Notes under the pieces: generated by a model
The model's database searches: none
Told to the model about the DNA's origin: nothing
What the model saw: only the letters and a program-made list of their open reading frames with translations
Assembly (NCBI RefSeq): GCF_003788635.1
Contig: NZ_AYKH01000034.1
Location: 1-64,000, forward strand
Direction: 5' to 3'
DNA length: 64,000 nt
Source: Salinisphaera orenii subsp. orenii MK-B5
GTDB lineage: Bacteria; Pseudomonadota; Gammaproteobacteria; Nevskiales; Salinisphaeraceae
Shown here: piece by piece, positions 33,856-61,436 of the stretch
Layout: every line of letters begins with the position of its first letter
Numbering within the stretch: the first letter of the stretch is position 1
Program-made: the position numbers and the translations under genes

Positions 33856-34394
33856 CCGGACGCGCCGGGCGCGGATCGCGGCCTGATACACGTCGCCGCG
33901 CGACGTGCCGGCCGTCGCGCCCCTGATCCGCCACGGCCGGCGTCGGTAGCGGCCGCCCGCGACGCCCGCCTCGATGCGGTCCCGACATCCCGCGATGCAG
34001 GCGGATCTCCCGCCGTCTTGCGGTGGCAGACGCGTGGCGCTGTGTTTGCAGCGTTGTCGACGCCCGCGTCGTCGTCTGCCCTGCATCGTCGTTTGCCCTG
34101 GCGCCACGGCCACATTCGCCGGGCCTCGCGGCGCCGCGGCGATGCCCGTGCGTTCGCCGCAGCGGGGTGATCCGGCCGCGCATCGCCCATGCGTTCGCGA
34201 CCGCGACGCACCGACGGCGGCTCGGGTCAGGTCAAGGCCATAGGGGTCTCGGCGGCGGCGGCGCGAGCGTCAGTAGCTTCTGGTGCAGCTGAACCAATCT
34301 GGTGCAGCGTCAGGGTGCGCAGGATGTCCGCCACGGGGCCCGGATGGCCGGCAAGTCGTTGACGCGGCGACGGCTTCGCGCGTCGCTCCGCGGC
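33856..34394. other. 539-base intergenic region before the nitrogen island
   Basis: No convincing gene; the open frames on both strands are Arg-rich shadows. It ends at the sigma-54-like element at 34395, so upstream activator sites may lie here, but I see no obvious dyad. Confidence 0.4.
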
Positions 34395-34410
34395 TGGCAC
34401 GGATTCTGCG
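34395..34410 (+). promoter_or_regulatory. Candidate sigma-54 promoter upstream of the ANTAR regulator gene
   Basis: TGGCACGGATTCTGCG has a perfect -24 half (TGGCACG), the right spacer, and CTGC with the invariant GC at -12. A start near 34421 would put the hairpin and terminator at 34435-34542 at the front of the transcript. Confidence 0.55.
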
Positions 34411-34434
34411 AGATTCGCCATGCCGCCGCGCTGG

Positions 34435-34450
34435 GGATCAATGGCGATCC
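34435..34450 (+). promoter_or_regulatory. Leader hairpin with AAUGGC hexaloop (ANTAR-target-like)
   Basis: GGATC-AATGGC-GATCC: a perfect five-base stem closing a six-base loop with A at loop position 1 and G at position 4. ANTAR-domain antiterminators recognise hexaloops with A1 and G4. It is followed 46 bases later by an intrinsic terminator and then by an ANTAR gene. A second hexaloop hairpin, usual in this motif, is not obvious. Confidence 0.5.
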
Positions 34451-34495
34451 GCGACTGCCAGCCGGTCGGCCGACAATCGAGAGGACACCAACAAC

Positions 34496-34542
34496 GGCGT
34501 GCATCGATCTGCCCGGAGCGGATCGATGGGCGCCTTTTTTTT
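34496..34542 (+). terminator. Intrinsic terminator in the leader of the ANTAR regulator gene
   Basis: Fourteen paired positions (one G-G mismatch, one G-T) between 34496-34509 and 34521-34534, an 11-base loop, then eight T's. It lies 125 bases before the ANTAR start and 640 bases after the nearest upstream gene, so it is a leader attenuator rather than a gene end. Confidence 0.85.
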
Positions 34543-34668
34543 GGAAGCCGAACCATGCACAGACCAGCCACGGGATGCCCGGATTCGATTGGCGCGGCGA
34601 TCGCGAGGCCCCCGGTCCGCGCGCTGTCGCGGCTCGTGGCCGCGCCCGCGGGATTCGCGTGCTAGGCG

Positions 34669-35280
34669 TTGTCTGAGTCGGCATGCCATTCATCGAAGGC
34701 GTCGGCGGCCGGGCTGCGGGTGGTTCTGGTCGATCTCGAACCCTGGTCCGTGGACCGGCTCGACGTGGCCCTTGCGGAGGCCGGCTTTCAGGTGCTGGCC
34801 TGCGTTTCCGAGCCGTCGGCGCTGTTCGATCGCGTGATCGAACTGGAGCCCGATGTCGTGATCGCCAGCTCCAATTCGGCCCGGCGCGACACGCTGGAAT
34901 CGCTCATGCACATCGGCGAGCGCTACCCCAAGCCGATGCTCATGCTCTCCGATGCGATCGACCCGGATACCGTCGGCGACGCCGCGGCGGCCGGCATCAG
35001 CACGTATGCGGTGCAGGGCGTGTCCGCGGACATGCTGCGGTCGCTGATCGAGGTGACGGTCGGGCATTTCCGCGCCCGCGAACAGCTGCAGGCCGAGCTG
35101 GACAGCACCCGCCGGCAGATGTCGGAGCGCGAGGTCATCACCCGCGCCAAATGCCTCCTCATGGAGCGCTACGGCATGACCGAGGCCAACGCCTACACGA
35201 CGCTGCGCAACATGGCGATGGCCCGGCGCCGCCGGTTGATCGCGGTGGCGCGCTGGGTGCTCGAGCGGGGGACGGTCTGA
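34669..35280 (+). CDS. ANTAR-domain RNA-binding regulator (NasT-like)
   Basis: 203 aa. A pseudo-receiver domain (LRVVLVDLEPWSVDRLDVALAEAGFQVLACVSE ... PKPMLMLSDAIDPDTVGDAAAAGISTYAV) is followed by a helix and a C-terminal ANTAR domain (REVITRAKCLLMERYGMTEANAYTTLRNMAMARRRRLIAVARWVL). NasT-type proteins bind hexaloop RNA hairpins and prevent leader termination of nitrate/nitrite assimilation genes when released by NasS. Start is uncertain: TTG 34669 is used; no ATG lies in frame before the domain. The receiver Asp is in place but the family is usually not phosphorylated. Likely acts on the leaders at 34435-34542 and 35581-35658. Confidence 0.88.
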   Translation: MSESACHSSKASAAGLRVVLVDLEPWSVDRLDVALAEAGFQVLACVSEPSALFDRVIELEPDVVIASSNSARRDTLESLMHIGERYPKPMLMLSDAIDPDTVGDAAAAGISTYAVQGVSADMLRSLIEVTVGHFRAREQLQAELDSTRRQMSEREVITRAKCLLMERYGMTEANAYTTLRNMAMARRRRLIAVARWVLERGTV

Positions 35281-35514
35281 TGCCGCGCCGCGTGCCGGTG
35301 GGGGCAGGCGAGCCGGTATCCGGGCCGCCGGCGATACCGATCATCGTCAATGCCGTAGCGACCGACGGCCGGCGTCTGGCGCCGGTCACCGATCCGGCAC
35401 TGCGCGGTAACCGGTTCGTGCCCCTGCGCAATGCGCACACGGCAAGCGTCGACCCGGCCGCCCGGCGGCGGCAGCTGACCGACGGCCGGTCTCGCACCGT
35501 CGTTCCGCGACCGC
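35281..35514. other. Non-coding stretch between the ANTAR gene and the next promoter
   Basis: Part of a 400-base space with no gene. Repeated CCGG-containing short dyads are present but none is striking. The signals proper are at 35515-35658. Confidence 0.35.
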
Positions 35515-35530
35515 CGGCACGGTCGTTGCA
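35515..35530 (+). promoter_or_regulatory. Candidate sigma-54 promoter of the NrtA-like/cynS operon
   Basis: CGGCACGGTCGTTGCA matches TGGCACG-N4-TTGCW at all fixed positions but the first T. The start would be near 35541, placing the leader signals 40-115 bases into the transcript. Confidence 0.6.
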
Positions 35531-35580
35531 ACCGCAGTCATGGATTCAACGCCCGCGCGTCGCCCGGCAGTTCGCTGCCC

Positions 35581-35592
35581 TCCAATGGCGGA
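35581..35592 (+). promoter_or_regulatory. TCC-AATGGC-GGA loop in the second leader
   Basis: The same AATGGC hexamer as in the 34435 hairpin, again flanked by complementary bases, though only three pairs (TCC/GGA) close it. A GGCAG-TTCG-CTGCC hairpin stands immediately before at 35566-35579. The terminator at 35623 follows. Weak stem, so the call rests on the repeated architecture. Confidence 0.4.
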
Positions 35593-35622
35593 ATGCGTCG
35601 CGCAGGCACGGACTGCAGCCAG

Positions 35623-35658
35623 GGGCGTACGGCCGGTCGACGGCGGTACGCCCTTTTT
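35623..35658 (+). terminator. Intrinsic terminator 23 bases before the NrtA-like gene
   Basis: GGGCGTAC (35623-35630) pairs with GTACGCCC (35646-35653), enclosing an inner GCCG/CGGC stem, followed by five T's. Being directly in front of the start at 35681, it can only be an attenuator, to be overridden by an antiterminator such as the ANTAR protein. Confidence 0.88.
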
Positions 35659-35680
35659 CGTGCACGGGAGATGGAATTTG

Positions 35681-37096
35681 ATGGCCGATGACGATCGCAA
35701 CCCGCAGCGCCCGAATCGCCACGTGCCGCTGGGCGATCCGTTCGATGTCGAGGTGCTTCTGCATCAGCCGCATGCGCACGATCACGCCGCCACGGACGCC
35801 GGTATCGCCGGTCCGGCCGCGGTCGATCGCGAGCGCCTGGTCGATCGGCTGGTGGAGAGCACGGTCGTGCGTGCGGTGTTCGGCCATCGCGACGGCGCGC
35901 GCCGGCGTTTCCTGAAGGCCATGGGCGGCGGCACCGCGGCCGCCGCGCTGTCGAGCGTGTTTCCGCTCAAGGCAGCCAAGGCGGCCGTGCATCAGGAGCT
36001 GGACGATCTCGGCGGCCTCGAGAAGCGCCAGCTCAAGGTTGGCTTCGTGCCGATCACCTGCGCCACGCCGATCATCATGGCCGACCCGCTCGGCTTCTAC
36101 CGCAAGCAGGGTCTCGACGTGGAGGTCGTCAAGACGCCGGGGTGGGCGGTGGCCCGGGACAAGGCGGTGAGCCTCGAGCACGACGCCGCCCACATGCTCA
36201 CGCCCATGCCGCTGGCGATCGACATGGGCGCGGGCTCGGCGCCCATGCCCTTCTACATGCCGGCGGTCGAGAACATCAACGGCCAGGCGATCACGCTGCA
36301 CCGGGATCATCGGGAGCGGCGCGATCCGCGCCAGTGGCGGGGCTTCCGGTTCGCCGTGCCCTTCGACTATTCCATGCACAATTTCCTGCTGCGCTACTAC
36401 GTCGCCGAGCACGGGCTGGACCCGGACCGCGACATCGAGATCCGGGTGCTGCCGCCGCAGGACATGGTGGCCAACCTGCGCCGCGGCAATGTCGACGGCT
36501 ATCTCGCCCCGGACCCGTTCAACCAGCGCGCGGTCCACGAGGGCGTGGGCTTCATCCATCTGCTCACCAAGGAGATCTGGGACGGTCATCCGTGCTGCGC
36601 GTTCGCGGCAAGCCGGCACATGGCCGAATCCATGCCCAACACCTTCGGCGCCCTGTTCAAGGCGATCGTCGATGCGACGCACTATTCCTCCGATTTCGGC
36701 CACCGCCGCGAGATCGCCGAGGCGATCGCCCCGGCGCGCTATCTGGACCAGCCGGTCAGCGTGGTCGAGCAGGTGCTCACCGGCCACTTCGAGGACGGTC
36801 TGGGCGGCGTCCACAACGTTCCGGATCGGATCGACTTCGATCCGTTTCCCTGGCACGCGATGGCGGTCTGGATCCTCACCCAGATGAAGCGCTGGGGCTA
36901 TGTCCGCGGCGATGTCGACTATCAGGGCATCGCCGAGCGTGTCTGTCTGGCCACCGACTGTGGGCGGGTCATGCGCGATCTGGGTTACGCCCCGCCGGTC
37001 GAGACCCGCCGCCACTACACGATCATGAACAAGCGTTTCGACTCGACAGCGCCCGAGGCTTACGTCGATAGCTTCGCCATTCGCCGGACGCCGTGA
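35681..37096 (+). CDS. NrtA/CmpA-family substrate-binding protein with Tat signal
   Basis: 471 aa. A 70-residue leader ends in a twin-arginine-like signal (ARRRFLKAMGGGTAAAALSSVFPLKAAKA). The binding domain starts LKVGFVPITCATPIIMADPLGFYRKQGLDVEVVKTPGW, the NrtA/CmpA hallmark, and contains LPPQDMVANLRRGNVDGYLAPDPFNQRAV. The family binds nitrate, nitrite, bicarbonate or cyanate for ABC uptake. No permease or ATPase gene is next to it; cyanase follows. It may bind cyanate for a distant transporter, or sense it in a NasS-like way, though NasS proteins are cytosolic and this one appears exported. Start is fixed by the terminator just upstream. Confidence 0.88.
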   Translation: MADDDRNPQRPNRHVPLGDPFDVEVLLHQPHAHDHAATDAGIAGPAAVDRERLVDRLVESTVVRAVFGHRDGARRRFLKAMGGGTAAAALSSVFPLKAAKAAVHQELDDLGGLEKRQLKVGFVPITCATPIIMADPLGFYRKQGLDVEVVKTPGWAVARDKAVSLEHDAAHMLTPMPLAIDMGAGSAPMPFYMPAVENINGQAITLHRDHRERRDPRQWRGFRFAVPFDYSMHNFLLRYYVAEHGLDPDRDIEIRVLPPQDMVANLRRGNVDGYLAPDPFNQRAVHEGVGFIHLLTKEIWDGHPCCAFAASRHMAESMPNTFGALFKAIVDATHYSSDFGHRREIAEAIAPARYLDQPVSVVEQVLTGHFEDGLGGVHNVPDRIDFDPFPWHAMAVWILTQMKRWGYVRGDVDYQGIAERVCLATDCGRVMRDLGYAPPVETRRHYTIMNKRFDSTAPEAYVDSFAIRRTP

Positions 37097-37226
37097 CCAT
37101 GCGGCCCGGCACCGGCCGCGGGAACACCGCGGTGCCATTCGAACGAGACCGCACCGCGGTCCCGTCGCCGCGCGACCAAGGCGCGGCGTTACCGCCACTC
37201 ATATGACCCATCGCAGGGAGGACGTC

Positions 37227-37673
37227 ATGGAAAAACAGGCAATGACACGCGCGATTCTCGACGCCAAGAAGGCCAGGGGGATGCGCTGGACCGAGATCGC
37301 CGATCAGATCGGCATGTCGCCGGTGTGGACCGCCTCGCTGGCCCTCGGCGAGTCGTCGGCGCCGGAGGACATCGCCCAGAAGCTGTGTGCGGTGCTGGAT
37401 CTGGGCGACGACGTGGCCGACGCGCTTCAGGTCTGCCCGCTCAAGGGCCAGTGGATGGACAAGACCGTGCCCACCGACCCGATGATCTATCGCTTCTACG
37501 AAATCATGGCGGTCTACGGCCCGGCCGTGAAGGCATGTGTCCACGAGGAATTCGGCGACGGAATCATGTCGGCGATCGATTTCAAGATGGATGTGGAGCG
37601 CGAGCCCGACCCGAAGGGGGACCGCGTCAAGATCGTGATGAGCGGCAAGTTCCTGCCCTACGTGCGCTGGTAG
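37227..37673 (+). CDS. cynS: Cyanate hydratase (cyanase)
   Basis: 148 aa from ATG 37227 with GGGAGG nine bases upstream. An N-terminal helical domain (MTRAILDAKKARGMRWTEIADQIGMSPVWTASLALGE) leads into the catalytic domain. Arg89, Glu92 and Ser115 (YRFYEIMAVYG ... DGIMSAIDF) correspond to Arg96, Glu99 and Ser122 of E. coli. The enzyme converts cyanate and bicarbonate to two CO2 and ammonia as a decamer in the cytosol. It lies 130 bases after the NrtA-like gene on the same strand. Confidence 0.97.
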   Translation: MEKQAMTRAILDAKKARGMRWTEIADQIGMSPVWTASLALGESSAPEDIAQKLCAVLDLGDDVADALQVCPLKGQWMDKTVPTDPMIYRFYEIMAVYGPAVKACVHEEFGDGIMSAIDFKMDVEREPDPKGDRVKIVMSGKFLPYVRW

Positions 37674-37681
37674 CGCGGGAT

Positions 37682-37714
37682 CGCGGTGGCGGCTGTGTCA
37701 CGGCCGCCACCGCG
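37682..37714 (+). repeat. Strong intercistronic hairpin between cynS and the FNT channel gene
   Basis: A 12-base perfect stem (37682-37693 with 37703-37714) and a 9-base loop begin nine bases after the cynS stop. No T-run follows, so it probably protects the upstream mRNA or lowers read-through rather than terminating fully. Confidence 0.6.
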
Positions 37715-37765
37715 CCAGCCGACGCTTTTCGAATGCTTTCGATTCAATAAACCGGGGATTACTCG

Positions 37766-38578
37766 ATGTCCTATCTGCAACCTGCCGAATTCGTCAAGAA
37801 AATGGTGGATTCCGGCGAATCCAAGATCTATATGGGTCGTCGCGACACCATCATCCGGGGCTACATGGCAGGGGCCATCCTGGCGCTGGCGGTGGTGTTC
37901 GCGGTGACCATCACGGTCAACACCGGCAATGCGCTGCTCGGCGCGGCCCTGTTTCCGGTCGGCTTCTGCATGCTCTATCTGATGAGCTTCGATCTGCTCA
38001 CGGGCGTGTTCATGCTCACGCCGCTGGCCTGGCTGGACGGCCGGCCGGGCGTGACCATTCCACGCATCCTCGAGAACTGGGGGCTGGTGTTCATCGGCAA
38101 TCTGCTGGGCGCGCTCACCGTGGCCTTCATCATGGCGGTCAATTTCACCTACGGCTTCTCCAGTCCGATCAACGAGGTCGGCCAGGCCATCGCCCATATC
38201 GGCGAGGGGCGCACGATCGGCTATCGCGACCACGGCTTCGGCGGCTGGATGACGCTGTTCATCCGCGGCTGCCTGTGCAACTGGATGGTCTCCATGGGCG
38301 TGGTCGGCGCGATGGTCTCGACCTCGGCCACCGGCAAGATCGCCGCGATGTGGATGCCGATCATGGTGTTCTTCTATCTCGGCTTCGAGCATTCGGTGGT
38401 CAACATGTTCCTGTTCCCGCTGGGCATTATTCTGGGCGGCGGCTTCACGGTCTGGGACTATCTGCTCTGGAACGAGATCCCGACCGTGCTCGGCAACATC
38501 GTCGGCGGTATCTCGCTGACCGGTCTCACGCTGTACACGACCCACGTACGCACTCAGGCAAAGCGCGAGTTCGGGTGA
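37766..38578 (+). CDS. Formate/nitrite transporter (FNT) family channel
   Basis: 270 aa with six membrane helices. SLLTGVFMLTPL-type text appears as FDLLTGVFMLTPLAWLDGRPG, then NWGLVFIGNLLGALTVAF and FIRGCLCNWMVSMGVVGAMVS, and FEHSVVNMFLFPLGIILGG; these are the FNT slits and central His (FEHSVVNM). FNT channels pass small monovalent anions (formate, nitrite, hydrosulfide). Beside cynS, cyanate or nitrite is the natural guess, but specificity cannot be read off the sequence. Confidence 0.92.
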   Translation: MSYLQPAEFVKKMVDSGESKIYMGRRDTIIRGYMAGAILALAVVFAVTITVNTGNALLGAALFPVGFCMLYLMSFDLLTGVFMLTPLAWLDGRPGVTIPRILENWGLVFIGNLLGALTVAFIMAVNFTYGFSSPINEVGQAIAHIGEGRTIGYRDHGFGGWMTLFIRGCLCNWMVSMGVVGAMVSTSATGKIAAMWMPIMVFFYLGFEHSVVNMFLFPLGIILGGGFTVWDYLLWNEIPTVLGNIVGGISLTGLTLYTTHVRTQAKREFG

Positions 38579-38693
38579 TCGCGTTCGTCGCCGACCTTGC
38601 GGCGCGGCCGCGCGCGGCGACGATCCGCATGAGCCTACGGGGCCGGCGCCCGTCGCCGCGCCCCGTTTTCGCGTGACCGACCGGGACACCGTC

Positions 38694-40439
38694 ATGTCCG
38701 AACAGCTGCGCATAGCGGCCGGCCAGTACTCCAGCGCCGGTCGCAAGGCGATGAACCAGGATTTTCACGGCCTCTGCACGCCGGAGGGGCCGGCGCTGGC
38801 CTCCAAGGGGATCGCCATCGCCCTCGCCGACGGCATCGGCAGCAGCGAGGTCAGCCACGTCGCCAGCGAAACCGCGGTCGCCGGCTTTCTCGACGACTAT
38901 TACTGCACGTCCGAGGCCTGGTCGGTCCGCCGCTCGGCCGAGCGCGTGATCACCGCGACCAACGCCTGGCTGCACGCCCAGACACGCCAGAGCCCGTATC
39001 GTGAGGATGCCGACCGCGGCTATGTCTGCACCTTCAGCGCGCTCGTGTTGAAGGCCGCGACCGCCCATGTGTTCCACGTCGGCGATGCGCGTATCTATCG
39101 ATTGCGCGACGGGCGTCTGGAGCAGCTCACCGAGGACCACCGGGTGGCCATCGGCGGCGGTCAGAGCTATCTCGCCCGGGCGCTGGGTGTGGGCGAGCGC
39201 ATCGACATCGATTATCGCGGGCACTCTATCGCGACCGGCGATGTCTTCGTGCTGCTCACCGACGGCGTCCACGAGCATGTCGACGACGCGCGCATCGCCG
39301 AGATCGTGGCGGCGCACGGCGAGGATCCCGACGCCGCCGCGAAGCAGCTTGCGGCCCGGGCATTCGAGGCCGGCAGCGAGGACAACCTGATCGCGCAGGT
39401 CGTGCGCGTCGAGGCGGTGCCGCACAGCGATCCCGAGGATATCGCCGAGCGGCTGACCCGGCTGCCCCATCCCCCGGAGCTCGAGGCGCGCGACAGCTTC
39501 GAGGGCTACGAGATCGTGCGCCAGCTCCATGTCTCGTCACGCAGCCGCATTCATCTCGCCCGTGAGATGGAGACCGACCGCCCGGTCGCCCTCAAGACCC
39601 CGGGCAGTGATCTGCGTGACGATCCGGTCCTGCTCGAGCGGTTTCTGCTGGAGGAATGGATCGCGCGGCGTCTCGACAGTCCCCATGTGCTCAAGCCGGC
39701 CGGCCGCCGCCACCGGCAGGCGCACGTCTACGTCGCCATGGAATACATCGAAGGCACGACGCTGACCCAGTGGATGATCGACCATCCGCGTCCGGAGATG
39801 GCGGCCGTGCGGGAACTCGTCACCCAGATCGGCAAGGGCGTGCTGGCCTTTCACCGCCAGGAGATGATTCATCAGGACCTGCGCCCGGATAACATCCTCA
39901 TCGATGCCACCGGCACGGTGAAGATCATCGACTTCGGCGCGGTCGAGGTCGCGGGCATCAGCGAGAGCGCCGGGCGGCTGGGGGCCGACGAGATCCTGGG
40001 CACCGAGCAGTACGCCGCACCCGAGTACTTTCTGGGCGAGCGCGGCACGGTGCGCTCGGATCTCTTCTCGCTCGCGGCGATCACCTACCAGATGCTCACG
40101 GGCCGGCTGCCCTACGGCACGCGGGTTCCCCGCGCTCGCAGTGCGGCCGCGCAGCATCGCCTGAAATACAGCAGCGCGATCGCCTACAACGCCGATGTGC
40201 CGCTCTGGGTGGACGGCGCGCTGAAGAAGGCGCTGCATCCGAACCCGGACCGGCGCTACGCCGAAGTCGCCGAGTTCGTCTACGATCTGCACCACCCGCG
40301 CAAGGCCTTCATGGCCGATCACGCCCTGCCGCTGATCGAGCGCGACCCGAACCGCTTCTGGAAAGGGCTGTCCGCCGTGCTCGGCCTGACGGTGATCGGG
40401 CTGTTCGCCTATATCGTGCGAATCGGTGGGGGCGTCTGA
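38694..40439 (+). CDS. Bifunctional PP2C phosphatase-Ser/Thr protein kinase
   Basis: 581 aa. PP2C-like domain at about 5-245 (ALADGIGSSEVSHVASETAV, FHVGDARIYRLRDGRLEQLTEDH, VFVLLTDGVHEHVD). Kinase domain at about 265-535: VALKTPGSD (Lys), IHQDLRPDNILID (HQD in place of HRD), IIDFGAVEVAG (DFG) and LGTEQYAAPEYF (activation segment). One C-terminal membrane helix (LSAVLGLTVIGLFAYIVRIG) puts the enzyme at the inner membrane, facing inward. Such fusions recur beside nitrate/nitrite transporters; here it closes the cyn/FNT group. Targets unknown. Confidence 0.92.
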   Translation: MSEQLRIAAGQYSSAGRKAMNQDFHGLCTPEGPALASKGIAIALADGIGSSEVSHVASETAVAGFLDDYYCTSEAWSVRRSAERVITATNAWLHAQTRQSPYREDADRGYVCTFSALVLKAATAHVFHVGDARIYRLRDGRLEQLTEDHRVAIGGGQSYLARALGVGERIDIDYRGHSIATGDVFVLLTDGVHEHVDDARIAEIVAAHGEDPDAAAKQLAARAFEAGSEDNLIAQVVRVEAVPHSDPEDIAERLTRLPHPPELEARDSFEGYEIVRQLHVSSRSRIHLAREMETDRPVALKTPGSDLRDDPVLLERFLLEEWIARRLDSPHVLKPAGRRHRQAHVYVAMEYIEGTTLTQWMIDHPRPEMAAVRELVTQIGKGVLAFHRQEMIHQDLRPDNILIDATGTVKIIDFGAVEVAGISESAGRLGADEILGTEQYAAPEYFLGERGTVRSDLFSLAAITYQMLTGRLPYGTRVPRARSAAAQHRLKYSSAIAYNADVPLWVDGALKKALHPNPDRRYAEVAEFVYDLHHPRKAFMADHALPLIERDPNRFWKGLSAVLGLTVIGLFAYIVRIGGGV

Positions 40440-42010: not shown

Positions 42011-42071
42011 ACTTTTCGCCGACTTTTCGCCGAATGATCGGCAAATGATCGCACCATTAAAGCGATCATTT
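42011..42071. promoter_or_regulatory. Operator-like direct and inverted repeats in the MocR-Nit1C divergent region
   Basis: CTTTTCGCCGA is repeated in tandem (42012-42022, 42023-42033), then ATGATCG recurs at 42034 and 42045. AAATGATCGC (42043-42052) and GCGATCATTT (42062-42071) form a perfect 10-base inverted repeat with a nine-base spacer. The right arm abuts the -24 box of the sigma-54 promoter. Direct repeats plus a dyad are what MocR proteins usually bind; which protein binds here is inference. Confidence 0.7.
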
Positions 42072-42086
42072 GGCACGGGCGTTGCA
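42071..42086 (+). promoter_or_regulatory. Perfect sigma-54 promoter of the Nit1C cluster
   Basis: TGGCACGGGCGTTGCA fits TGGCACG-N4-TTGCW at every position. The start would be near 42098, about 60 bases before the first gene. It implies RpoN-dependent, activator-driven expression under nitrogen limitation. No sigma-54 activator gene is in the window. Confidence 0.85.
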
Positions 42087-42158
42087 ACACCCTGGCGCAG
42101 TCGGTGCGCATGTCGCCGCCGGCGGCCAGCCGTTCAAGCCACGCACGGGAGAGATGCG

Positions 42159-42641
42159 ATGCCAGAAGTGACCACGCCGAAAACGCAGAAGGGCGATTAT
42201 TTCGTCGACTACGAGGACAAGGTCTTCGAGGACGTCCAGGCCGAACCGGGCGAGAAGGCGCTCGTGACCTTCCATACGGTGGCCTTCGAGGGGTCGATCG
42301 GGCTGGTGAACATGCTTCAGGCCAAGCGTCTGCTGCGCAAGGGCTTCGAGACCAGCATCCTGCTCTATGGCCCGGGCGTGACGCTGGGCGTGCAGCGCGG
42401 CTTTCCGACCATTGGTGACGAAGCCTTTCCCGGCCACCAGAACTACGAGAACCAGCTCAAGGCGTTCATGGACGAGGGCGGCAAGGTCTACGCCTGCCGC
42501 TTCGCCCTGCAGGCGCTCTACGGCCACGGCGAGCCGGCGCTGGTCGAGGGTATCCAGCCGATCAGCCCGCTGGACGTGCTCGATATCCAGCTCATCGCGC
42601 GGCGCGACAACGCCTATGTCGTCTCCACCTGGACCATGTAG
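42159..42641 (+). CDS. MSMEG_0572/Sll0783 family nitrogen-dependent response protein (first Nit1C gene)
   Basis: 160 aa, GGGAGAG before ATG 42159. [78 protein letters not shown] is the family signature; the fold resembles DsrE-like proteins. The Synechocystis homologue Sll0783 is strongly induced by nitrogen starvation. It is the first gene of the seven-gene cluster, and a hairpin after it may allow higher expression than the rest. Molecular activity unknown. Confidence 0.92.
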
Positions 42642-42658
42642 ACCCGTGCGTCGCCACG

Positions 42659-42686
42659 CCCCGGCCCCGACGATCGCGGGCCGGGG
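42659..42686 (+). repeat. Intercistronic hairpin after the first Nit1C gene
   Basis: CCCCGGCCC (42659-42667) and GGGCCGGGG (42678-42686) form a nine-base stem with a ten-base loop, 18 bases after the stop. No T-run. It may stabilise the first cistron or reduce transcription into the nitrilase gene. Confidence 0.55.
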
Positions 42687-42725
42687 CCGCGCGCATCTCG
42701 ACGCGCCACCGATGAGCCTCTTGCC

Positions 42726-43781
42726 ATGACATTGCCTACCCACAACCGCCTGCGGGTGGCGGCGGTACAGCTGCAGCCCGTCCTCGACGACGCCCACGGC
42801 ACCGTCGAGCGCGTGCTTGCAGAGATCGCGGCCGCCGCGGCCGACGGCGCGCGGCTGGTGGTTTTTCCCGAGACCGCGGTGCCGTACTACCCGTACTGGT
42901 CGTTCGTGCTGCCGCCCATGACCATGGGCGACAGGCACCGCGCGCTCTACGAGCACGCGCCCGCGGTGCCGGGCCCGGTCACCGAGGCGGTGGCGGCAGC
43001 GGCGCGCGAGCACGCGATCGTGGTGGTGCTGGGCGTGAACGAGCGCGACCACGGCACGCTCTACAACTGCCAGCTCGTGTTCGATGCCGACGGCACCATC
43101 ACGCTCAAGCGCCGCAAGATCACGCCGACCTATCACGAGCGCATGGTCTGGGGGCAGGGCGACGGCGCCGGCCTGCACGCGGTGGATACCGCGGCCGGGC
43201 GGATCGGTGCGCTGGCCTGCTGGGAGCACTACAACCCGCTGGCCCGCTACGCGCTTATGGCCGATCACGAACAGATCCACTGCAGCCAGTTTCCCGGCTC
43301 GCTGGTGGGCCCGATCTTCGCCGAGCAGCAGGAGGTCACCCTGCGTCACCACGCGCTGGAATCCGGCTGCTTCGTGGTCAACGCCACGTCCTGGCTGGAC
43401 GCCGACCAGATCGGGAGCGTCACCCCCGACGAGGCACTGCAGAAAGGCCTGCGCGGCGGCTGCTACACGGCGATCATCGCGCCCGACGGCTCGCACGTCG
43501 TCGAGCCGCTGCGCGATGGGCCGGGCCGGCTGGTCGCCGAAATCGACCTGTCGCTGATCACCAAGCGCAAGCGAATGATGGATTCGGTCGGCCACTACGC
43601 CCGCCCGGAACTGTTGTCGTTGCACATCGACCGGCGCGCGCATCACGCCGCGCACGGCGTGCCGCAAGACGAGGCGCGCACCCCGTACCCATCCGCTCTC
43701 GAATCCGAGGAAGTCGACCATGGCGAACCCGAGCCGCAAGCTCCGCACCGAAATGCAGTCGCTGGGTCTGCGCCTGGCTGA
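42726..43781 (+). CDS. Nit1-type nitrilase of the Nit1C cluster
   Basis: 351 aa. Catalytic triad Glu49 ([14 protein letters not shown]), Lys131 ([20 protein letters not shown]) and Cys165 ([17 protein letters not shown]), the nitrilase-branch pattern. Nit1C has been genetically linked to use of cyanide as sole nitrogen source, so the substrate may be cyanide or a nitrile/cyanohydrin formed from it. The 3' end overlaps the next gene by 62 bases. The last 30 residues are unconserved-looking, so part of the tail may simply be read-through into the overlap. Confidence 0.93.
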
Positions 43782-44808
43782 CCCGTCCCAGGGCGCGCCG
43801 AGCCGGCGCGGCGGCGCGGGGCCTTCCGACCACAAGGCCGTGACCATCGACGGCGCGACCGTGATGGTGCCGGTGCATACCGGCCACTCGAAGCGCTCGC
43901 CCTTCGAGACCGACGGCGAGGGCCGCCTCACCCGCAACGGTGAGCCGGTCACCACGATCCAGTTCGCCCCGCAGCCGCGCTTCTATGCGCGCAGTACCGC
44001 CGACGGCGTCCCCTACTGGCAGATCGCCCAGCTGCACAGCACCGACGTGCTCGCCACCACGGTGTTCCAGACCTGCGTGCGCTACGGCCGGCGTGCGACC
44101 TCCTGTCAGTTCTGCGCCATCGGCCAGTCGCTGGCCGATGGCCGCACCATCAACCGCAAGACGCCGGCACAGCTGGCCGAAGTGGCCCGGGCCGCGGTCG
44201 AACTGGACGGCGTCAAGCACATGGTGATGACCACCGGCACGCCGAACTTCACCGATCGCGGCGCGGCGATCCTGTGCGAATCCGCGTTTGCCGTGCGCAG
44301 CGCGGTGGATCTGCCGATTCAGGCCCAGTGCGAGCCGCCGGACGACCCGGTCTGGTTTGCGCGCCTGAAGGCGGCGGGCGTGGATTCGCTCGGCATGCAT
44401 CTGGAAGCGGTCACGCCCGAGGTGCGGGCGCGCATCATGCCCGGCAAGGCCGAAGTCACGCCCGATGCCTATCTCGAGGCCTTCGAACAGGCCGTGGCCG
44501 TGTTCGGGCGCGGTCAGGTGTCGACGTACATCCTGGCCGGGTTGGGCGATACGCGCGCGGCCATCCTCGCGATGAGCGAGGAGCTGATCGCGCGCGGGGT
44601 CTATCCGTTCGTGGTGCCGTTCGTGCCGATCACCGGCACGCCGCTGGAAAACCACGAAGCGCCGAGCGCGGCGTTCATGGAATCGCTGCTGGCGCCGATC
44701 GGGCGCATGCTCGTCGACGCCGGCATGAAGTCGTCGGACATCAAGGCCGGCTGCGGGCGCTGCGGTGCCTGTTCGTCGTTGTCGGCCTACGAAAGCGCGA
44801 GCGCGTGA
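43720..44808 (+). CDS. MSMEG_0568 family radical SAM protein (Nit1C)
   Basis: 362 aa. Three cysteines C119, C129 and C132 ([18 protein letters not shown]) form a widened CX9CX2C radical SAM cluster, related to lipoyl synthase/BioB-like folds. A second cysteine group near the C-terminus ([15 protein letters not shown]) may carry another Fe-S cluster. [16 protein letters not shown] and [42 protein letters not shown] are family blocks. Reaction unknown; always with the nitrilase. It overlaps both neighbours, showing tight coupling. Confidence 0.92.
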
Positions 44809-45362
44809 TGCTGCTAGACGGCGACGACTACAAGATCGTGCCTTTCGTGCCGGGCGGTTACAGCATCAAGCGCGCCGACCGCGCCTGGGAGGTGCGCGCC
44901 GCGCACGCGCTGCGCCGCCAGGTGTTCTGCGCCGAGCAGGGTCTGTTCGCGCACGACGACCGCGACGGCCACGATGCCGGCGCGTTGCCGATCGTCGCGC
45001 TTTCCTGGAACGCCGGCATGGCCGAACGCGTGGTCGGTACCGTGCGTATCCATGCCCACGAGAACGGCCTGTGGCGCGGTTCGCGTCTGGCGGTCGCGCG
45101 CGGCTACCGGCGCACTGCCGGCCTCGGCCGCGAGCTGATCCGCGTAGCGGTGGGCAGCGCTCATGCGCGCGGTGCGACGCGTTTTCTGGCGACGGTCCAG
45201 CAGGCCAATATCAGTTTCTTCGAGAGCCTGCACTGGCGGCTGCTGGATATGGCCACGGTCTGCGGCGCGCCCCACGGGCTGATGGAGGCCGACCTCGCCC
45301 ATTATCCGCCCTGCGCGGATCACGAATGCGCCGTGGTCGCGCCGCGGCGGCGCGCGGCATGA
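44808..45362 (+). CDS. MSMEG_0567-type GNAT N-acetyltransferase (Nit1C)
   Basis: 184 aa, TGATG junction with the radical SAM gene. VRAAHALRRQVFCAEQGLFAHDDRDGHDAGALPIVAL is the GNAT beta1-alpha1 entry, RVVGTVRIHAHENGLWRGSRLAVARGYRRTAGLGRELIRVAV contains the acetyl-CoA loop, and ATVQQANISFFESLHWRLLD is motif B. In some organisms this and the next protein are fused (MSMEG_0567). Acceptor unknown. Confidence 0.92.
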   Translation: MLLDGDDYKIVPFVPGGYSIKRADRAWEVRAAHALRRQVFCAEQGLFAHDDRDGHDAGALPIVALSWNAGMAERVVGTVRIHAHENGLWRGSRLAVARGYRRTAGLGRELIRVAVGSAHARGATRFLATVQQANISFFESLHWRLLDMATVCGAPHGLMEADLAHYPPCADHECAVVAPRRRAA

Positions 45363-46396
45363 GTGCCGCGACGCAACGGCTGGATATCGTCGCCGCACGG
45401 GCCCGCGCGGCCGGCGGCATCGCGGGCAAGACCGATATCGCCGCGGTCATGAATACGCTGCTGCCCGACCATGCGCAGGACGCCGCCCCCATCCGCATCG
45501 GCGACGACTGTGCCGCCATCCCTCAGCACGGCCCCGACGGCGACGGCTATCTGCTGTTCGCGATCGAGGGCTTCGTCAACGCCTTCGTGCAGCGCATGCC
45601 CTGGTTCGCCGGCTACTGTGGCGTCATGGTCAATATCAGCGATATCGCGGCCATGGGTGGGCGCCCGACCGCCGTGGTCGATGCGGTCTGGAGCCGCGAC
45701 ACCGAGCGCGCGCGCCCGATCGTCGAAGGTCTGGCGGCGGCCGCCCGTGCCTACGACGTGCCCGTGGTAGGCGGCCACAGCAATGCCCACAGCGGCCACG
45801 AACAGCTATCGGTGGCCATCGTCGGCCGTGCCAAGCGGCTGCTGACCAGTTTCGACGCCCGCCCGGGCGACGTGCTGGTCGCTGCCATCGATCTGCGTGG
45901 GCGCTACCGCGAACCGTTCTCGCACTGGGACGCCAGCAGCGCGACGCCCGGCGCGCGCCTGCGCGGCGATCTGGAGCTGCTGCCGGCCCTGGCCGAAGCC
46001 GGGCTGTGCCACGCCGCCAAGGACATCAGCATGGCCGGCGTCGTCGGCACCGCGATGATGCTCGCCGAGTGCTCGCGCGTCGGCGCGGTGATCGATATCG
46101 ACGCCGTGCCGTGCCCGCCGGCGATCGCGCCCGAGCGGTGGCTGTGCGACACCTTTCCCAGCTTCGGCTTCGTGCTCGCGGTGGCGCCGGCCCATGTCGA
46201 TGCCGTGGTCGCTCGTTTTCAGGCGCGCGACATCGGCTGCGCGGCGATCGGCCACTGCGACGCCAGCCAGCGCCTGTACCTGCGCGAAGGCGCGGCCGAG
46301 CGCGAACTCTGGAATTTCGAAACCCATCCCTTCATGGCCTGCACGCCCAGCCGGGCGGGCGTGGCCACCGATGCCGGAACCTGTTGCCATGCCTGA
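45359..46396 (+). CDS. Sll0787-family AIR synthase-like (PurM/SelD superfamily) protein (Nit1C)
   Basis: 345 aa, ATGA overlap with the GNAT gene. PIRIGDDCAAIP gives the ATP-binding Asp pair, MVNISDIAAMGGRPTAVVDAVW and VVGGHSNAHSGHEQLSVAIVGRA are AIR-synthase landmarks, and LCHAAKDISMAGVVGTAMMLAECSRVGAVIDID is the C-domain. It should use ATP to activate a small amide or formamide-like oxygen, as PurM relatives do. That chemistry fits processing of a formamide/formyl-type product, but this is inference. Confidence 0.92.
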   Translation: MSAATQRLDIVAARARAAGGIAGKTDIAAVMNTLLPDHAQDAAPIRIGDDCAAIPQHGPDGDGYLLFAIEGFVNAFVQRMPWFAGYCGVMVNISDIAAMGGRPTAVVDAVWSRDTERARPIVEGLAAAARAYDVPVVGGHSNAHSGHEQLSVAIVGRAKRLLTSFDARPGDVLVAAIDLRGRYREPFSHWDASSATPGARLRGDLELLPALAEAGLCHAAKDISMAGVVGTAMMLAECSRVGAVIDIDAVPCPPAIAPERWLCDTFPSFGFVLAVAPAHVDAVVARFQARDIGCAAIGHCDASQRLYLREGAAERELWNFETHPFMACTPSRAGVATDAGTCCHA

Positions 46397-46676
46397 AACC
46401 TGGTTCAACGTCCGCTGGCCGGACGACAGTCGCAGCCGCTGCTATTCGCCCTCGAGCACAACCACCGAGTTCTTCGAGGCCGGCGCGGCCTATCCGGTGC
46501 CCGAATTCATGCGCCGCAGCCGCGACGCGCTCACCCACGCCGGCGAGCGCGTGCGCGCAAAGTATGGCTATGCCTGCAGCGCCTCGGCCGAACAACTCAT
46601 CGCCATCGAACGCCGAGCGATGGCGTTCTCCGGCGATGCCGCCGCGCGCGTGCTCGTCGAGGGCTTCGAACGATGA
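46389..46676 (+). CDS. MSMEG_0570 family nitrogen starvation response protein (Nit1C)
   Basis: 95 aa, eight-base overlap with the previous gene. METWFNVRWPDDSRSRCYSPSSTTTEFFEAGAAYPVPEFMRRSRDALTHAGERVRAKYGYACSASAEQLIAIE is the full family pattern (here MPETWF at the start). Small, soluble, unknown activity. Its last codons overlap the start of the flavoprotein gene (ATGA). Confidence 0.92.
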   Translation: MPETWFNVRWPDDSRSRCYSPSSTTTEFFEAGAAYPVPEFMRRSRDALTHAGERVRAKYGYACSASAEQLIAIERRAMAFSGDAAARVLVEGFER

Positions 46677-47977
46677 GCGCGCCACAACGTCGCGGTCCCG
46701 CGATCGAGCGCCACTGGCCGGTCGTCGTCATCGGCGGCGGCCAGGCCGGGTTGTCGGCCAGCTACTGGCTGCAGCGCCATGGCATCGAGCATGTCGTCAT
46801 CGAGAAGAACCGCGTCGGCCATGCCTGGCGCCACCTGCGCTGGGATACGTTCTGTCTCGTGACGCCCAACTGGCAGTGTCGGCTGCCGGGGTTCCCCTAC
46901 GACGGCGACGATCCGCACGGCTTCATGCCGCGCGACGAGATCGTGGCCTATCTGGAGCGCTATCGGGATTTCGTCGATCCGCCGCTGCGCGAGGGCGTGA
47001 CCGTGACCCGCGTGGGCCAGTGCGAGGACGAGGGCGAAGACGCCGAGCCGGGTTTCATCGTCGAAACGACCGACGGCACGGCCACCGCCGACCAGGTCGT
47101 GCTCGCCGTCAACGGCTACCACGTACCGCGCGTGCCGCGCCTCGCCGAGCGCCTGCCGGCGGCCGTGCAGCAGTGGCATTCCGTGGACTATCGCAATCCG
47201 CAATCACTGCCCGCGGGCGGCGTGCTGGTCGTCGGCACCGGCCAGTCCGGCTGCCAGATCGCGGAGGATCTGCATCTGGCCGGGCGCCGCGTGCACCTGT
47301 CCGTGGGCAGCGCGCCGCGGGCGCCGCGTGCCTACCGCGGACGCGATTCGGTGGACTGGCTCGAACGCATGGGCACCTACGACGTCACCGTCGACGAACA
47401 CCCCGAGCCGGCCGGGAAACTGCGCCACAAGGCCAACCATTACATGACCGGGCGCGACGGCGGCCGCGAGATCGACCTGCGCCGTTTTGCGCTCGAAGGA
47501 ATGCAGCTCTACGGCCGTGTCGCCACCGTCGAGGCCGACGGCACGCTCGCTTTCGAGCCCAACCTCGCCGCCAATCTCGACGCGGCGGATGCCACCTACT
47601 GCAAGATACGCGACAGTATCGATGCCTATATCGCGGCCCAGGGCATCGACGCGCCGCCCGCCGAGCCGTTCGTGCCCGTCTGGCAGCCGCCGAGCGAGCC
47701 GGCGCAGCTCGACCTCGTCGCTGCCGGTATCACCAGCGTGATCTGGGCCACCGGCTTCGCCAGCGATTTCCGCTGGGTCGAACTGCCCCTGTTCGACGGC
47801 GCCGGCGAACCCGTACACCGGCGTGGCGTAACCGGCGTCGACGGCGCCTATTTCCTCGGCCTGCCCTGGCTCAACACCTGGGGATCGGGTCGTTTCGCGG
47901 CGGTCGGCGCGGATGCCGAACATCTGGTCGAGCGAATCGCCGAACGGGCCGCCGCACCCCAGCGCGCCGTGTCTTAG
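46673..47977 (+). CDS. MSMEG_0569 family flavin-dependent oxidoreductase (last Nit1C gene)
   Basis: 434 aa. FAD site VVVIGGGQAGLSASYWLQRHG near 19-39 and NADPH site VLVVGTGQSGCQIAEDL near 183-199. WDTFCLVTPNWQCRLPGFPYDGDDPHGFMPRDEIVAYLERY is typical of this FMO-like family. IWATGFASDFRWVELPLFDGAGEPVHRRGVT is the late ATG motif. It probably oxygenates the nitrogen compound handled by the cluster. Completes the conserved seven-gene set in the usual order. Confidence 0.93.
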   Translation: MSAPQRRGPAIERHWPVVVIGGGQAGLSASYWLQRHGIEHVVIEKNRVGHAWRHLRWDTFCLVTPNWQCRLPGFPYDGDDPHGFMPRDEIVAYLERYRDFVDPPLREGVTVTRVGQCEDEGEDAEPGFIVETTDGTATADQVVLAVNGYHVPRVPRLAERLPAAVQQWHSVDYRNPQSLPAGGVLVVGTGQSGCQIAEDLHLAGRRVHLSVGSAPRAPRAYRGRDSVDWLERMGTYDVTVDEHPEPAGKLRHKANHYMTGRDGGREIDLRRFALEGMQLYGRVATVEADGTLAFEPNLAANLDAADATYCKIRDSIDAYIAAQGIDAPPAEPFVPVWQPPSEPAQLDLVAAGITSVIWATGFASDFRWVELPLFDGAGEPVHRRGVTGVDGAYFLGLPWLNTWGSGRFAAVGADAEHLVERIAERAAAPQRAVS

Positions 47978-53569: not shown

Positions 53570-56500
53570 TCATTCGTCTTCGAGCACGACCACCGGCTGG
53601 CCGGCGGCCACCGCGGCGCCTTCGGCGATCGGCAGGCGAGCGACGCGCCCGGCCTGAACGGCGCGGACCTCGACTTCCATCTTCATGGACTCGACCAGGG
53701 CGACCAGCTGGCCGTCCTCGACGGCCTCGCCTTCGGCGACCTGCAGCTTCCACAGGCTGCCGGAGACCGGGCTGTCGATACCGGTCTCGCCCGCGGCCAG
53801 GGCCTCGGATTCGGCCGGCTCGGGAATATGGTCCTCGAAGGTGAACTGGCCGTCAGCCCGCCAGCGCGCCATCTCCTCCTGGAAGGCGGCCTCGCGGCGT
53901 TCGCGAAACGTCTCGATGGATTCCTGATGGGCATCGAGCCAGGCTTCGTGTTCGGCCAGCGAGAAGGTGACCGTCTCGGTTTGCAGGTCGAAGCGCCCGT
54001 GCAGGAATTCGCGCCGGATCTCGGTGAGTTCGTCGTGGCTGACTTCGTAGAAGCGCAGCTGGTCAAAGAACCGCAGCAGCCAGGGATTCTCGAAATGGCG
54101 CGTCTCGCGATAGCGGTTCCACATCTGCAGCGTGCGGCCGACGAACTGGTAGCCGCCCGGGCCTTCCATGCCGTAGACGCACAGGTAGGCGCCGCCGATG
54201 CCGACCGAGTTCTCGGCGGTCCAGGTGCGCGCGGGGTTGTACTTGGTGGTGACCAAACGCTGGCGCGGGTCGAGCGGTGTGGCTACCGGCGCGCCGAGAT
54301 AGACATCGCCCAGGCCCATGACCAGATAGCGGGCATCGAAGACGATGTCGCGGATCTGGTCTTCGTTGTCGAGCGCGTTGATACGGCGGATGAAATCCAG
54401 ATTGCTCGGACACCAGGGCGCGTCCGGGCGCACGGTGCGCTGGTAGATACGGATCGCCTCGTGGCAGGCCGGATCGTCCCAGGACAGCGGCAGGTGCACC
54501 ACGCGCGATTCGACCTCGAGCTGTTCGACGTCGCGCAGCGCCCGTTCGGCGTGTTCGAGATGTGCCAGCAGATCGGCCAGCGCGAGCGTGTTCGGGTCGT
54601 AGTGGATCTGCAGCGAGCGGATGCCGGGGGTGAGTTCGGCCATGCCGGTCAGCGGGTGCTCGCGCAGCCACAGCATCCAGGCATGGGCACGAAAACGCAG
54701 CGCGATCTCGAGCGCCATCTCGCCGAACTCGATCAGCAGGAAGTCGTCGCCCGCACGGCGGTAAACGATGCGCTCGCCGGCCTCGGCCGCCGGCACCTCG
54801 CGCAGCACCGGGTGGCTACGCTCGGCGACGAGGCTCGGCGCGCGGGTGGCGGCGAGCGTATCCAGGCGGGCCTGCCGATCGGCCTCGAGCGCACGCGCGG
54901 TGTTCAGCGATACCGGTACGAAGCGCACGCTGTCGCCGGCGGCGAGCTGGCCGAGCTTCCAGCGCTCGGCGCGCACGGTGGTCGCGGGGCAGACGAAACC
55001 GCCCAGCGACGGTCCGTCCGGGCCCAGGATGACCGGCATGTCGCCGGTGAAATCGATGGTGCCGAAGGCGTATGCGTTGTCGTGGATATTGGACGGGTGC
55101 AGCCCGGCCTCGCCGCCGTCCTCGCGGGCCCATTCGGGGCGGGGGCCGATCAGGCGCACGCCGGTGCGGTTGGAATGAAAATGCACGTCCCAGTCGTGGT
55201 CGAAGAACGTGTCGATATCGTCTTCGGTGAAGAAGTCGGGCGCGCCGTGCGGGCCGTAGAGAACGGCGATCTCCCAGTGGCGCCCGGTCTCGGTGGGCGT
55301 GCCGAACACGGGTACGACATCCGCGGGCAGGGCGCGGGGCGTGATCGCATTGCGGGCGGCCAGCGGCAGGACATCGCCGCTGCGCAGGGCGCGGCCGACG
55401 TGGCCGCCGAACTGGCCGAGCGTGAAGGTCGCACGCGAGCCGAGATAGGGCGGGCTGTCGATGCCGCCGGCGACCAGCAGGTAGCAGCGCGCGCCGCCCG
55501 TGATCTTGCCGAGCTTGAGCTTCGTCCCCGCGGGCACGTCGAGCACGCGCCAGAGCTCGACGGGCTCGTCGTCGAGCGTGGCGGCAATCGGCGCGCCGGC
55601 GAGCACGATCTGGGTGGCGCGGTTGAAGCGCAGCGTCGGCCCGGTCAGCGTTAGTTCGAGTCCGGCGGCGTCGTCGGCGTTGTCGAGCAGCCGGTTGCCG
55701 AGCCGGAACGACCAGTCGTCGAACGGCCCCGACGGCGGCACGCCCACGTCCCAGTGGCCGGTACGCCCGGGCACGTCCTGGATCGTGGTCATCGTGCCGG
55801 GGGCCAGCACTTCGATGGTCGGCGGCGCCCATTCCAGGTCGGCCAGCCAGCGGGTATGGAAATCCGCGCGTTCGAAACGGGCGTCGCGCAGCACTTGCGA
55901 CAGCCAGGTACGGTTGGTCTCGATGCCGTAGACCCGCGAGGCCTCGAGCGTGGCGGCCAGGCGCTCGACGGCCTGCGCGCGATCGTCGGCGTGGACGATG
56001 ACCTTCGCCAGCATCGGATCGAACAGCGGCGATATCTCCAGCCCGGCCTCGATCGAATGATCGATGCGCAGGCCGTCGCCGGTCGGGAACGTCACCTCGG
56101 TGAGCAGGCCGGCAGAGGGGCGGAAATCCTGGTGCGGGTCCTCGGCGTAAAGACGCGCCTGTACGGCATGGCCGCTCGGGGCGAGCTCGGCGCGCAGGGC
56201 GGACAGATCCATGGCCTCACCGGCGCCCAGGCGCAGCATCCAGTCGACGATATCCACGCCCCAGACGGCCTCGGTCACGCCGTGTTCGACCTGCAGGCGC
56301 GTGTTTACTTCCAGAAAGAAGAAGCGCTCGCGTACGGCATCAAAGATGAACTCCACCGTGCCCGCGCTGCGATAATTCACCGCTTCGCCGAGGGCGACGG
56401 CGGTTGCGTGCAGTTCGGCGCGTACGGCCTCCGGCAACGCCGGTGCCGGGCATTCCTCGATGACCTTCTGATTGCGGCGCTGGGTCGAGCAGTCGCGCTC

Positions 56501-57172: not shown

Positions 57173-57260
57173 GGATGACGATCCAAAGGTCGATGCGGGT
57201 CGTCCCGCCGGGGTTCGCAGCGCCGCGGGGTCGTCCCCGCGCGCGGTCAATAGCGGGCGC

Positions 57261-61390: not shown

Positions 61391-61436
61391 AAAAACACGG
61401 GGGTACCGGTAGCAGCGCTGCCTGGTGACCTCCCGG
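61391..61436 (-). terminator. Expression-platform terminator of the guanidine riboswitch
   Basis: On the minus strand CGGGAGGU (61435-61428) can pair with ACCCCCG (61404-61398), with one bulged A, followed by UG and UUUUU (61391-61395 on plus as AAAAA). The 5' arm is the conserved 3' end of the aptamer, so ligand binding should prevent the terminator and switch the operon on. Confidence 0.8.

Follow-up and report, generated by a model that had tools for sequence, protein, structure and literature searches.

The 64-kb stretch of the Salinisphaera orenii MK-B5 genome (3.67 Mb) analyzed here, hereafter the window, carries an array of forward-strand genes running from 34669 to 40439, which code for an ANTAR regulator, an NrtA/CynA-like substrate-binding protein, a cyanase, a formate/nitrite-transporter-family (FNT) channel, and a PP2C phosphatase/Ser-Thr kinase fusion. 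The genes for the ANTAR regulator and the CynA-like protein are each preceded by a leader that combines a sigma-54 promoter element, a hairpin with an AATGGC hexaloop, and an intrinsic terminator. We propose that both leaders are probably nitrogen-controlled attenuators under NasT-type ANTAR antitermination and that, with the leader of the nas operon elsewhere in the genome, they constitute a three-leader regulon. The use of the promoters, the halting of transcripts at the terminators, and the binding of the leaders by a protein are inferred in this proposal, as are the inducer (nitrate/nitrite or cyanate) and the ANTAR protein that acts.

In leader 1, upstream of the ANTAR gene, a sigma-54 (-24/-12) element, TGGCACGGATTCTGC, was located by pattern match at 34395 to 34409 and is followed after 30 nt by the AATGGC hexamer, which forms the loop (34440 to 34445) of a hairpin with a 5-bp stem, GGATC-AATGGC-GATCC (P1; 34435 to 34450). 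P1 is borne on the basal stem of a predicted 5′ domain (34422 to 34470; minimum free energy fold, z score of -1.20). An intrinsic terminator (34496 to 34542), with a hairpin at 34496 to 34534 (-30.5 kcal/mol; z score of -4.96 against shuffles) and eight T's at 34535 to 34542, lies farther downstream, with about 125 nt between its end and the likely TTG initiation codon of the ANTAR gene (34669). Leader 2, upstream of the CynA-like/cynS operon, has its own pattern match to the sigma-54 element, CGGCACGGTCGTTGC, at 35515 to 35529 and, 54 nt downstream, a P1 with a 3-bp stem, TCC-AATGGC-GGA (35581 to 35592; loop at 35584 to 35589), lying in a predicted 5′ domain (35551 to 35607; minimum free energy fold, z score of -0.32) whose stem also encloses a GGCAG-UUCG-CUGCC hairpin. 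The terminator of this leader (35621 to 35658; hairpin at 35621 to 35655, -28.2 kcal/mol, z score of -4.80; T run at 35654 to 35658) precedes the ATG of the NrtA/CynA-like gene at 35681 by 22 nt. All of these elements are on the forward strand. The preliminary description of this DNA had noted both sigma-54 elements, the closure of both hexamers by complementary bases with A1 and G4 in place, and stems of five and three pairs, all of which we find as it described them; its spacing of about 40 bases between promoter element and hexamer fits neither leader, and its placement of a strong terminator just before the gene is right for leader 2 and wrong for leader 1.

Both hexaloops have a C:G closing pair, the kind preferred in selection experiments (systematic evolution of ligands by exponential enrichment) with NasR, according to the consulted portion of PMC7496416, and both have the G4 reported as obligatory in the corresponding portion of PMC8934654. 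Of 20000 dinucleotide shuffles of 34422 to 34500, 4 produced AATGGC on a stem of 5 bp or more; of 20000 shuffles of 35541 to 35620, 59 produced it on a stem of 3 bp or more. A search for sigma-70 promoters in 34200 to 37300 recovered none. The cluster is found in its entirety in Salinisphaera halophila YIM 95161 (L107; the same locus as G006/L048), with 96 to 99% protein identity over long alignments, and the kinase fusion is represented there by two separate pieces (97% and 92% identity). Leader 2 differs between the two species at 9 of 165 positions, with P1 identical and the pairing of the terminator preserved.

The layout of the two leaders recurs in the nas operon of the same genome. A search with PF03861 recovered two ANTAR genes in this genome (G000): the local one and a NasT-like gene on contig C14, which is followed by an NrtA-family (NasS-like) gene and then by genes that, from a reading of their translations, appear to function in nitrate/nitrite assimilation. 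Between the NasT-like and NasS-like genes is a leader with a sigma-54 element, TGGCACGGTTGCTGC, a first hairpin CGATC-AATGGC-GGTCG, and a second hairpin GGGC-AAGGAA-GCCC at 63 nt from the first (loop to loop), the 3′ arm of which also serves as the 5′ arm of a terminator with six T's at its end. When 17 genomes of the family were searched with the pattern GGCACGGNNNNTGC-N(26-56)-AATGGC, G000 was matched exactly three times, once in the nas leader and once in each window leader; S. halophila (G006) gave the three corresponding matches, one unrelated match was seen in G013, and the other 14 genomes had none. The reversed pattern, used as a control, gave four matches over the 17 genomes, with none in either G000 or G006. 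Since the nas leader of the same genome shares the sigma-54/AATGGC arrangement and the ANTAR-type layout, NasT-like antitermination offers the best explanation for the control of the cyanate genes.

The local ANTAR protein (34669 to 35280; TTG start inferred) comprises a degenerate receiver domain and an ANTAR domain and is NasT-like, scoring 59.2 bits with PF03861 (cutoff, 27.3) and 20.6 bits with PF00072, below the cutoff of 30.2. It is 44% identical to the NasT-like protein of its own genome, and in the receiver domains of both the phospho-acceptor Asp is, by eye, apparently missing. The roles of EutV residues in RNA contact are described in the consulted portion of PMC8934654. With the numbering transferred by hand from EutV, which was itself outside the alignment, the local protein has R, E, and Y at the positions of the G4-contacting R142, E160, and Y164, and R, M, R, and R at those of R168, M172, R175, and R177, which make further RNA contacts; it differs from EutV in having A for N173, E for K143, and R for K147. 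We considered whether this gene is widespread in the genus and obtained no support for the idea: among the 17 family genomes, copies with 99 to 100% identity are found only in G000 and S. halophila, the remaining matches being at most 44% identical. The best foreign match in 369 genomes of the class is 42% identical, compared with 44% for the paralogue in the same genome, and a contig search that reaches near relatives only matched S. halophila alone. Between the terminator of leader 1 and the ANTAR gene is a 36-codon open reading frame (34555 to 34665, forward strand) that stops 3 nt before the TTG start; three of its codons differ in S. halophila, two of them with a change of residue.

Comparable leaders are encountered in other bacteria, where the genes for FNT, the kinase, and cynS are grouped together in several families. 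In G135, an FNT-cynS-kinase module is preceded by a sigma-54-like element, the hairpin TTAGTTATC-AATGGT-GATAGCTGA, and then CAAGC-AAAGAC-GCTTG, which overlaps a terminator; this leader thus has two A1/G4 hexaloops with a 7-nt linker. Of its relatives, G422 (L144) has only the second hairpin and terminator, and in G424 (L143) neither of these was seen. The leader in G255 has GCACGGT-AATGGC-GCCGTGC, with a stem of 7 bp, and a terminator, and a 468-amino-acid protein with an ANTAR-like end is encoded beside its FNT-kinase-cynS genes; this protein has no NCBIfam match, and we read it as possibly NasR-like. For relatives of G255 (L146, L147, L148, and L150), the search yielded a sigma-54-like element but no attenuator. 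The family f168 has an FNT gene in 54 of 151 genomes (55 matches), and we examined the leaders at 30 of these loci. Two A1/G4 hexaloops on stems of at least 5 bp and 20 to 45 nt apart, by thresholds set after the leaders had been inspected, are present in 13 of the 30, against 0.045 expected from shuffles, and an AATGGC or AACGGC loop in 11 of the 30, against 0.04 expected. Among 14 other FNT leaders, the dual hexaloop was found in one (L145, that of G135) and the AATGGC or AACGGC loop in one (L149, that of G255). Of the 13 dual-hexaloop leaders of f168, 11 have a cynS match as well as a kinase match in the 1.5-kb flank, and the other two (L153 and L156) have the kinase only. Most of the 13 have, by eye, no clear T-run terminator after the second hairpin (P2), and their expression platform may therefore differ. 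Five further f168 leaders (L162, L163, L164, L166, and L167) have a single AAAGGC hexaloop before a T run, and L177 has a similar sequence with a stem under the threshold. The remaining FNT leaders have a sigma-54-like element without an attenuator, or neither by the patterns used.

Two further observations concern these leaders. Of the dual-hexaloop leaders of f168 (among L151 to L180), about 10 of 13 have AACGG or AATGG in the P2 loop region and, by eye, a matching CCGTTG, CTGTTG, CCATTG, or CTATTG farther downstream, as might be expected if the loop could pair in a second way; the match is imperfect in L157, and L153 and L156 were outside this check. Within the genus, G011 (L108) has a CynS-FNT-kinase arrangement, and the 12-kb stretch around it contains neither an ANTAR gene nor a CynA gene; a hairpin CGCGC-AAGGGC-GCGCG lies there between a sigma-54-like site and cynS, and no terminator was found.

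The window leaders depart from known targets in the second hairpin of the canonical motif. Of the 14 genomes of the genus, 10 have a NasT-like match, and an alignment of the nas leaders of all 10 revealed a conserved ACAAY and a hairpin GGRC-A..G..-GYCC in every one of them; covariation in this P2 is slight, with one of four pairs changing on both sides, three invariant, and a score reached by 35 of 500 shuffles. P1 was recognized, partly by eye, in 7 of the 10 (as a seven-base loop in L008 and as a hexaloop with its ends paired in the fold in L007). In leader 1, an ACAAT is present, and the loop AACAAC (34491 to 34496) starts 17 nt from the beginning of it, as in the nas leader of the same genome; this loop belongs to a P2-like hairpin CC-AACAAC-GG (34489 to 34498) within a longer imperfect antiterminator. 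The CC/GG stem is accompanied by an A.C mismatch, and position 4 of the loop is A, where S. halophila has G (AACGAC). We built a covariance model, R1, from the second hairpin of the nas leaders; the nas leader of G000, part of its training set, scores 39.6 bits, and leader 1 of S. halophila scores 8.8 bits (E value, 4.8). As R1 misses the window leaders, the assignment of P2 in leader 1 is based on position and the S. halophila loop.

In leader 2, the sequence ACGCCC is present at 35549 to 35554 and again at 35648 to 35653, in the 3′ arm of the terminator, and each copy can pair with GGGCGT at 35623 to 35628. Both copies have a C-to-T change in S. halophila (35550 and 35649). This pairing is suggestive of a possible alternative, long-range antiterminator, and nothing stronger. 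A hairpin overlapping P1, GCGG-AATGCG-TCGC (loop from 35592), likewise has A1 and G4 (AAAGCG in S. halophila) and is mutually exclusive with P1.

Several results weigh against the proposed antitermination. The P2 of leader 1 is imperfect and has lost G4, and pattern and fold inspection of leader 2 detected no canonical A1/G4 hexaloop overlapping the terminator; R1, for its part, gave 11 matches at E values of ≤10, none of them to a window leader. Hence, the preliminary description was right that the second hairpin is not clear, it being weak in leader 1 and not found in leader 2, and for this reason neither leader is a canonical dual-hexaloop target. The linker between P1 and P2 in leader 1, at about 38 nt, exceeds the 5 to 12 nt of eut leaders (PMC3369931, in the portion consulted), and in the eut system a 20-nt extension is reported to have abolished antitermination (PMC8934654, likewise). 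In 3 of the 10 nas leaders of the genus (L005, L006, and L010), P1 was not recognized, and in G135 the predicted fold allows pairing between the ends of the P1 loop (A1 and U6), which reduces it to a tetraloop. The predicted P1 domains of the two window leaders are not clearly stabler than shuffles, and a simple terminator scanner called no terminator in 34200 to 37300 (mean of 1.4 in shuffles), probably because each of the two stems has an internal mismatch. The covariance check did not bear out the leaders either: in addition to the R1 result, no Rfam family reached its gathering score in either, the matches over the whole window being two guanidine riboswitches elsewhere, and the four matches at E values of ≤5 over 34250 to 35760 are far under the gathering scores and were taken as chance. 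The P1-P2 distance is also long in the nas leader of G000, and P1 sits on a basal stem in the predicted folds of several nas leaders and of both window leaders; in these models, such a stem could bridge the distance. Taken together, the earlier observation is confirmed, and its interpretation, NasT-type antitermination acting on cyanate genes, is partly supported: it appears right in kind, given the nas leader of the same genome and the FNT/kinase/cyanase leaders elsewhere, and incomplete by the strict two-hairpin definition.

We envisage that under nitrogen limitation the sigma-54 polymerase, probably with NtrC, would initiate at the elements at 34395 and 35515, and that the transcript would by default halt at the intrinsic terminator. 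Once released by its inducer, an ANTAR protein of the NasT type would then bind the AATGGC hexaloop and let the polymerase pass into the ANTAR gene from leader 1 and into the cynA-like/cynS/FNT/kinase operon from leader 2; these two leaders and the nas leader on the other contig would form one regulon with a common hexaloop. The NtrC consensus has the arms TGCACC-N5-GGTGCA, and a site with one mismatch to these arms, TGAACCAATCTGGTGCA, lies at 34290 to 34306 on the forward strand, about 90 bp before the leader 1 sigma-54 element. In the 64 kb there are two such one-mismatch palindromes, and 43 at three or fewer mismatches against 44.8 expected by chance.

Which ANTAR protein acts on the leaders bears on the inducer, and we hold nitrate/nitrite through NasT to be as plausible as cyanate through the local ANTAR protein. 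The NasT encoded with the nas operon on C14, freed by NasS on nitrate/nitrite, might read all three leaders, making the local ANTAR gene a target rather than the regulator, or at least not the sole one, and nitrate/nitrite rather than cyanate the inducer. This alternative has a substantial claim, if a somewhat less than even one: the hexaloop is identical in all three leaders, G000 has both the NasT-like and NasS-like genes, the putatively NasR-like protein of G255 is encoded beside FNT-kinase-cynS, and in G135 NasS-like genes begin at about 4 kb, and a NasT-like gene lies at about 7 kb, past the FNT-cynS-kinase module. It is countered by the retention of the predicted RNA-contact residues in the local ANTAR protein and by the 99% identity of this protein in the other genome with the cluster. 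Given the second ANTAR gene, the autoregulation that the preliminary description also proposed for the local ANTAR protein is no more than a possibility.

Leader 2 might instead be a decayed ANTAR target that has lost its second hairpin, with P1 persisting and the terminator no longer relieved efficiently, as the missing hexaloop over its terminator and the missing R1 match would suggest. We consider such decay unlikely, with P1 unchanged and terminator pairing kept between two species despite the nine differences, and with ACGCCC (35549) and GGGCGT (35623) available as a possible alternative antiterminator. Less probable by far is that the terminators are constitutive or answer a non-ANTAR signal and that the AATGGC hairpins are coincidental. 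Hairpins are indeed cheap in GC-rich sequence, as the z scores of the P1 domains attest, and some A1/G4 hexaloop on at least 3 bp is found in about 19% of shuffles of either leader; however, AATGGC itself on such stems is as rare in shuffles as given above, and the promoter-hexamer pattern occurs genome-wide only in these two leaders and in the nas leader, which has the identical hexaloop.

The scheme of a sigma-54 promoter, terminator, and ANTAR hexaloop is known for nas, nos, and eut leaders (PMC3795266, PMC6759348, and PMC3369931, in their consulted portions). From the same sources, the NasS-NasT systems of the nas and nos leaders of Paracoccus and Bradyrhizobium (PMC3795266 and PMC6759348) resemble the present one in the NasT-like protein, the leader RNA hairpins with a terminator, and the nitrogen-related target genes, and the nas operon of G000 itself bears the hexaloop of the window leaders. 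They differ in that the targets in the window are the cyanase/FNT/kinase operon and the ANTAR gene, in that the local NrtA-family protein has an export-type motif whereas NasS is cytosolic, and in that the second hairpin in the window is weak or not found. The dual-hexaloop antiterminators (EutV/eut, NasR/nasF, and AmiR/amiE; PMC3369931, in part) share the A1/G4 hexaloop, the C:G closing pair, and the downstream intrinsic terminator, whereas in the window P2 is noncanonical, P1 is on a predicted basal stem, and the P1-P2 distance is long. For EutV, a single hexaloop is reported as the minimal binding motif, with both required for antitermination (PMC8934654, in part). The cynFABDS operon of Pseudomonas pseudoalcaligenes similarly combines a CynA-like protein and cynS with a putative sigma-54 promoter; it needs the sigma-54-type activator CynF, and the portion of PMC6627978 consulted mentions no antitermination, in contrast to the ANTAR-type leader in the window. 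The same portion states that nitrate/nitrite transporters may carry cyanate, which fits the presence of an FNT channel in a cyanase operon. The predicted targets named in a sigma-54 survey include cyanate lyase as well as ANTAR genes (PMC12316311, in part). In titles and abstract openings, we found no publication that places cyanase under ANTAR control; as the predicted-target supplement of Ramesh 2012 was outside this scope, absence from print is not certain. Cyanase is thus probably an unreported target of a known type of ANTAR leader.

The NrtA/CynA-like protein (35681 to 37096, ATG start at 35681) has, by eye, a twin-arginine-like motif, RRRFLK, which suggests its export and, as an export-type motif, counts against a NasS-like role. 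Its 16 closest homologues in the 369 class genomes are 54 to 71% identical; in enlarged regions around 12 of the 16, cynS lies at less than 2 kb in nine, about 9 kb off in one, and outside the stretch in two. The leaders of these 12 cynA genes, for some of which the starts were estimated, gave no support to the idea of ANTAR leaders on cynABDS-type operons of CynA homologues: none of the 12 has a dual hexaloop or AAYGGC on at least 5 bp. In the window, neither cynB nor cynD is found beside the cynA-like gene, and the best CynB match in G000 (32% identity; E value, 2.3e-16) is on contig C1, cynD being outside that search. Because this match is weak and the gene directly after the cynA-like gene is cynS, the protein looks like an orphan. 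The cyanase (37203 to 37673) scores 174.7 bits with TIGR00673 (cutoff, 113.3), and the FNT channel (37766 to 38578) scores 217.1 bits with PF01226 (cutoff, 34.6) and 139.1 bits with TIGR00790, under the cutoff of 232.3. The PP2C/kinase fusion, identified by domain search, occupies 38673 to 40439.

Other features of the window also relate to nitrogen. A guanidine-I riboswitch on the minus strand (61428 to 61546; 89.8 bits with Rfam) lies about 60 nt after a sigma-54-like element on that strand, TTGGCAGGAATCCTGCT, and is probably part of a sigma-54 transcript; a one-mismatch NtrC-like palindrome is present at 61721 to 61737, in the region from 61608 to 61750, and the genes downstream are of the urea-transport and urea-carboxylase types. 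A guanidine-II riboswitch (57195 to 57242, minus strand; 41.1 bits) overlaps the 5′ end of the called urea carboxylase open reading frame (53570 to 57250). At 42071, a sigma-54 element, TGGCACGGGCGTTGC, is followed by genes of the MSMEG_0572, Nit6803 nitrilase, MSMEG_0568, and MSMEG_0569 families (42071 to 47977, forward strand), which we take to be a Nit1C-like cluster. The window as a whole looks like a nitrogen-scavenging island.

A bolder version of the proposal, which we offer as a speculation with the odds well against it, is that a NasT-like ANTAR protein dedicated to cyanate controls both its own gene and the cyanase operon, using sigma-54 and antitermination together and a hexaloop code in common with the nitrate operon, and that the orphan CynA-like protein may be its sensor. 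In this version, FNT-kinase-cyanase operons under ANTAR control would further amount to an unreported nitrogen regulon that recurs in Gammaproteobacteria and that in at least one form, that of f168, lacks an obvious intrinsic terminator. If antitermination of the NasT type does act on the two leaders, cyanate use would join the short list of pathways under ANTAR antitermination, and the three-leader regulon of this organism would allow direct tests of the hexaloop code, of the choice between two ANTAR paralogues, and of the need for a second hairpin.

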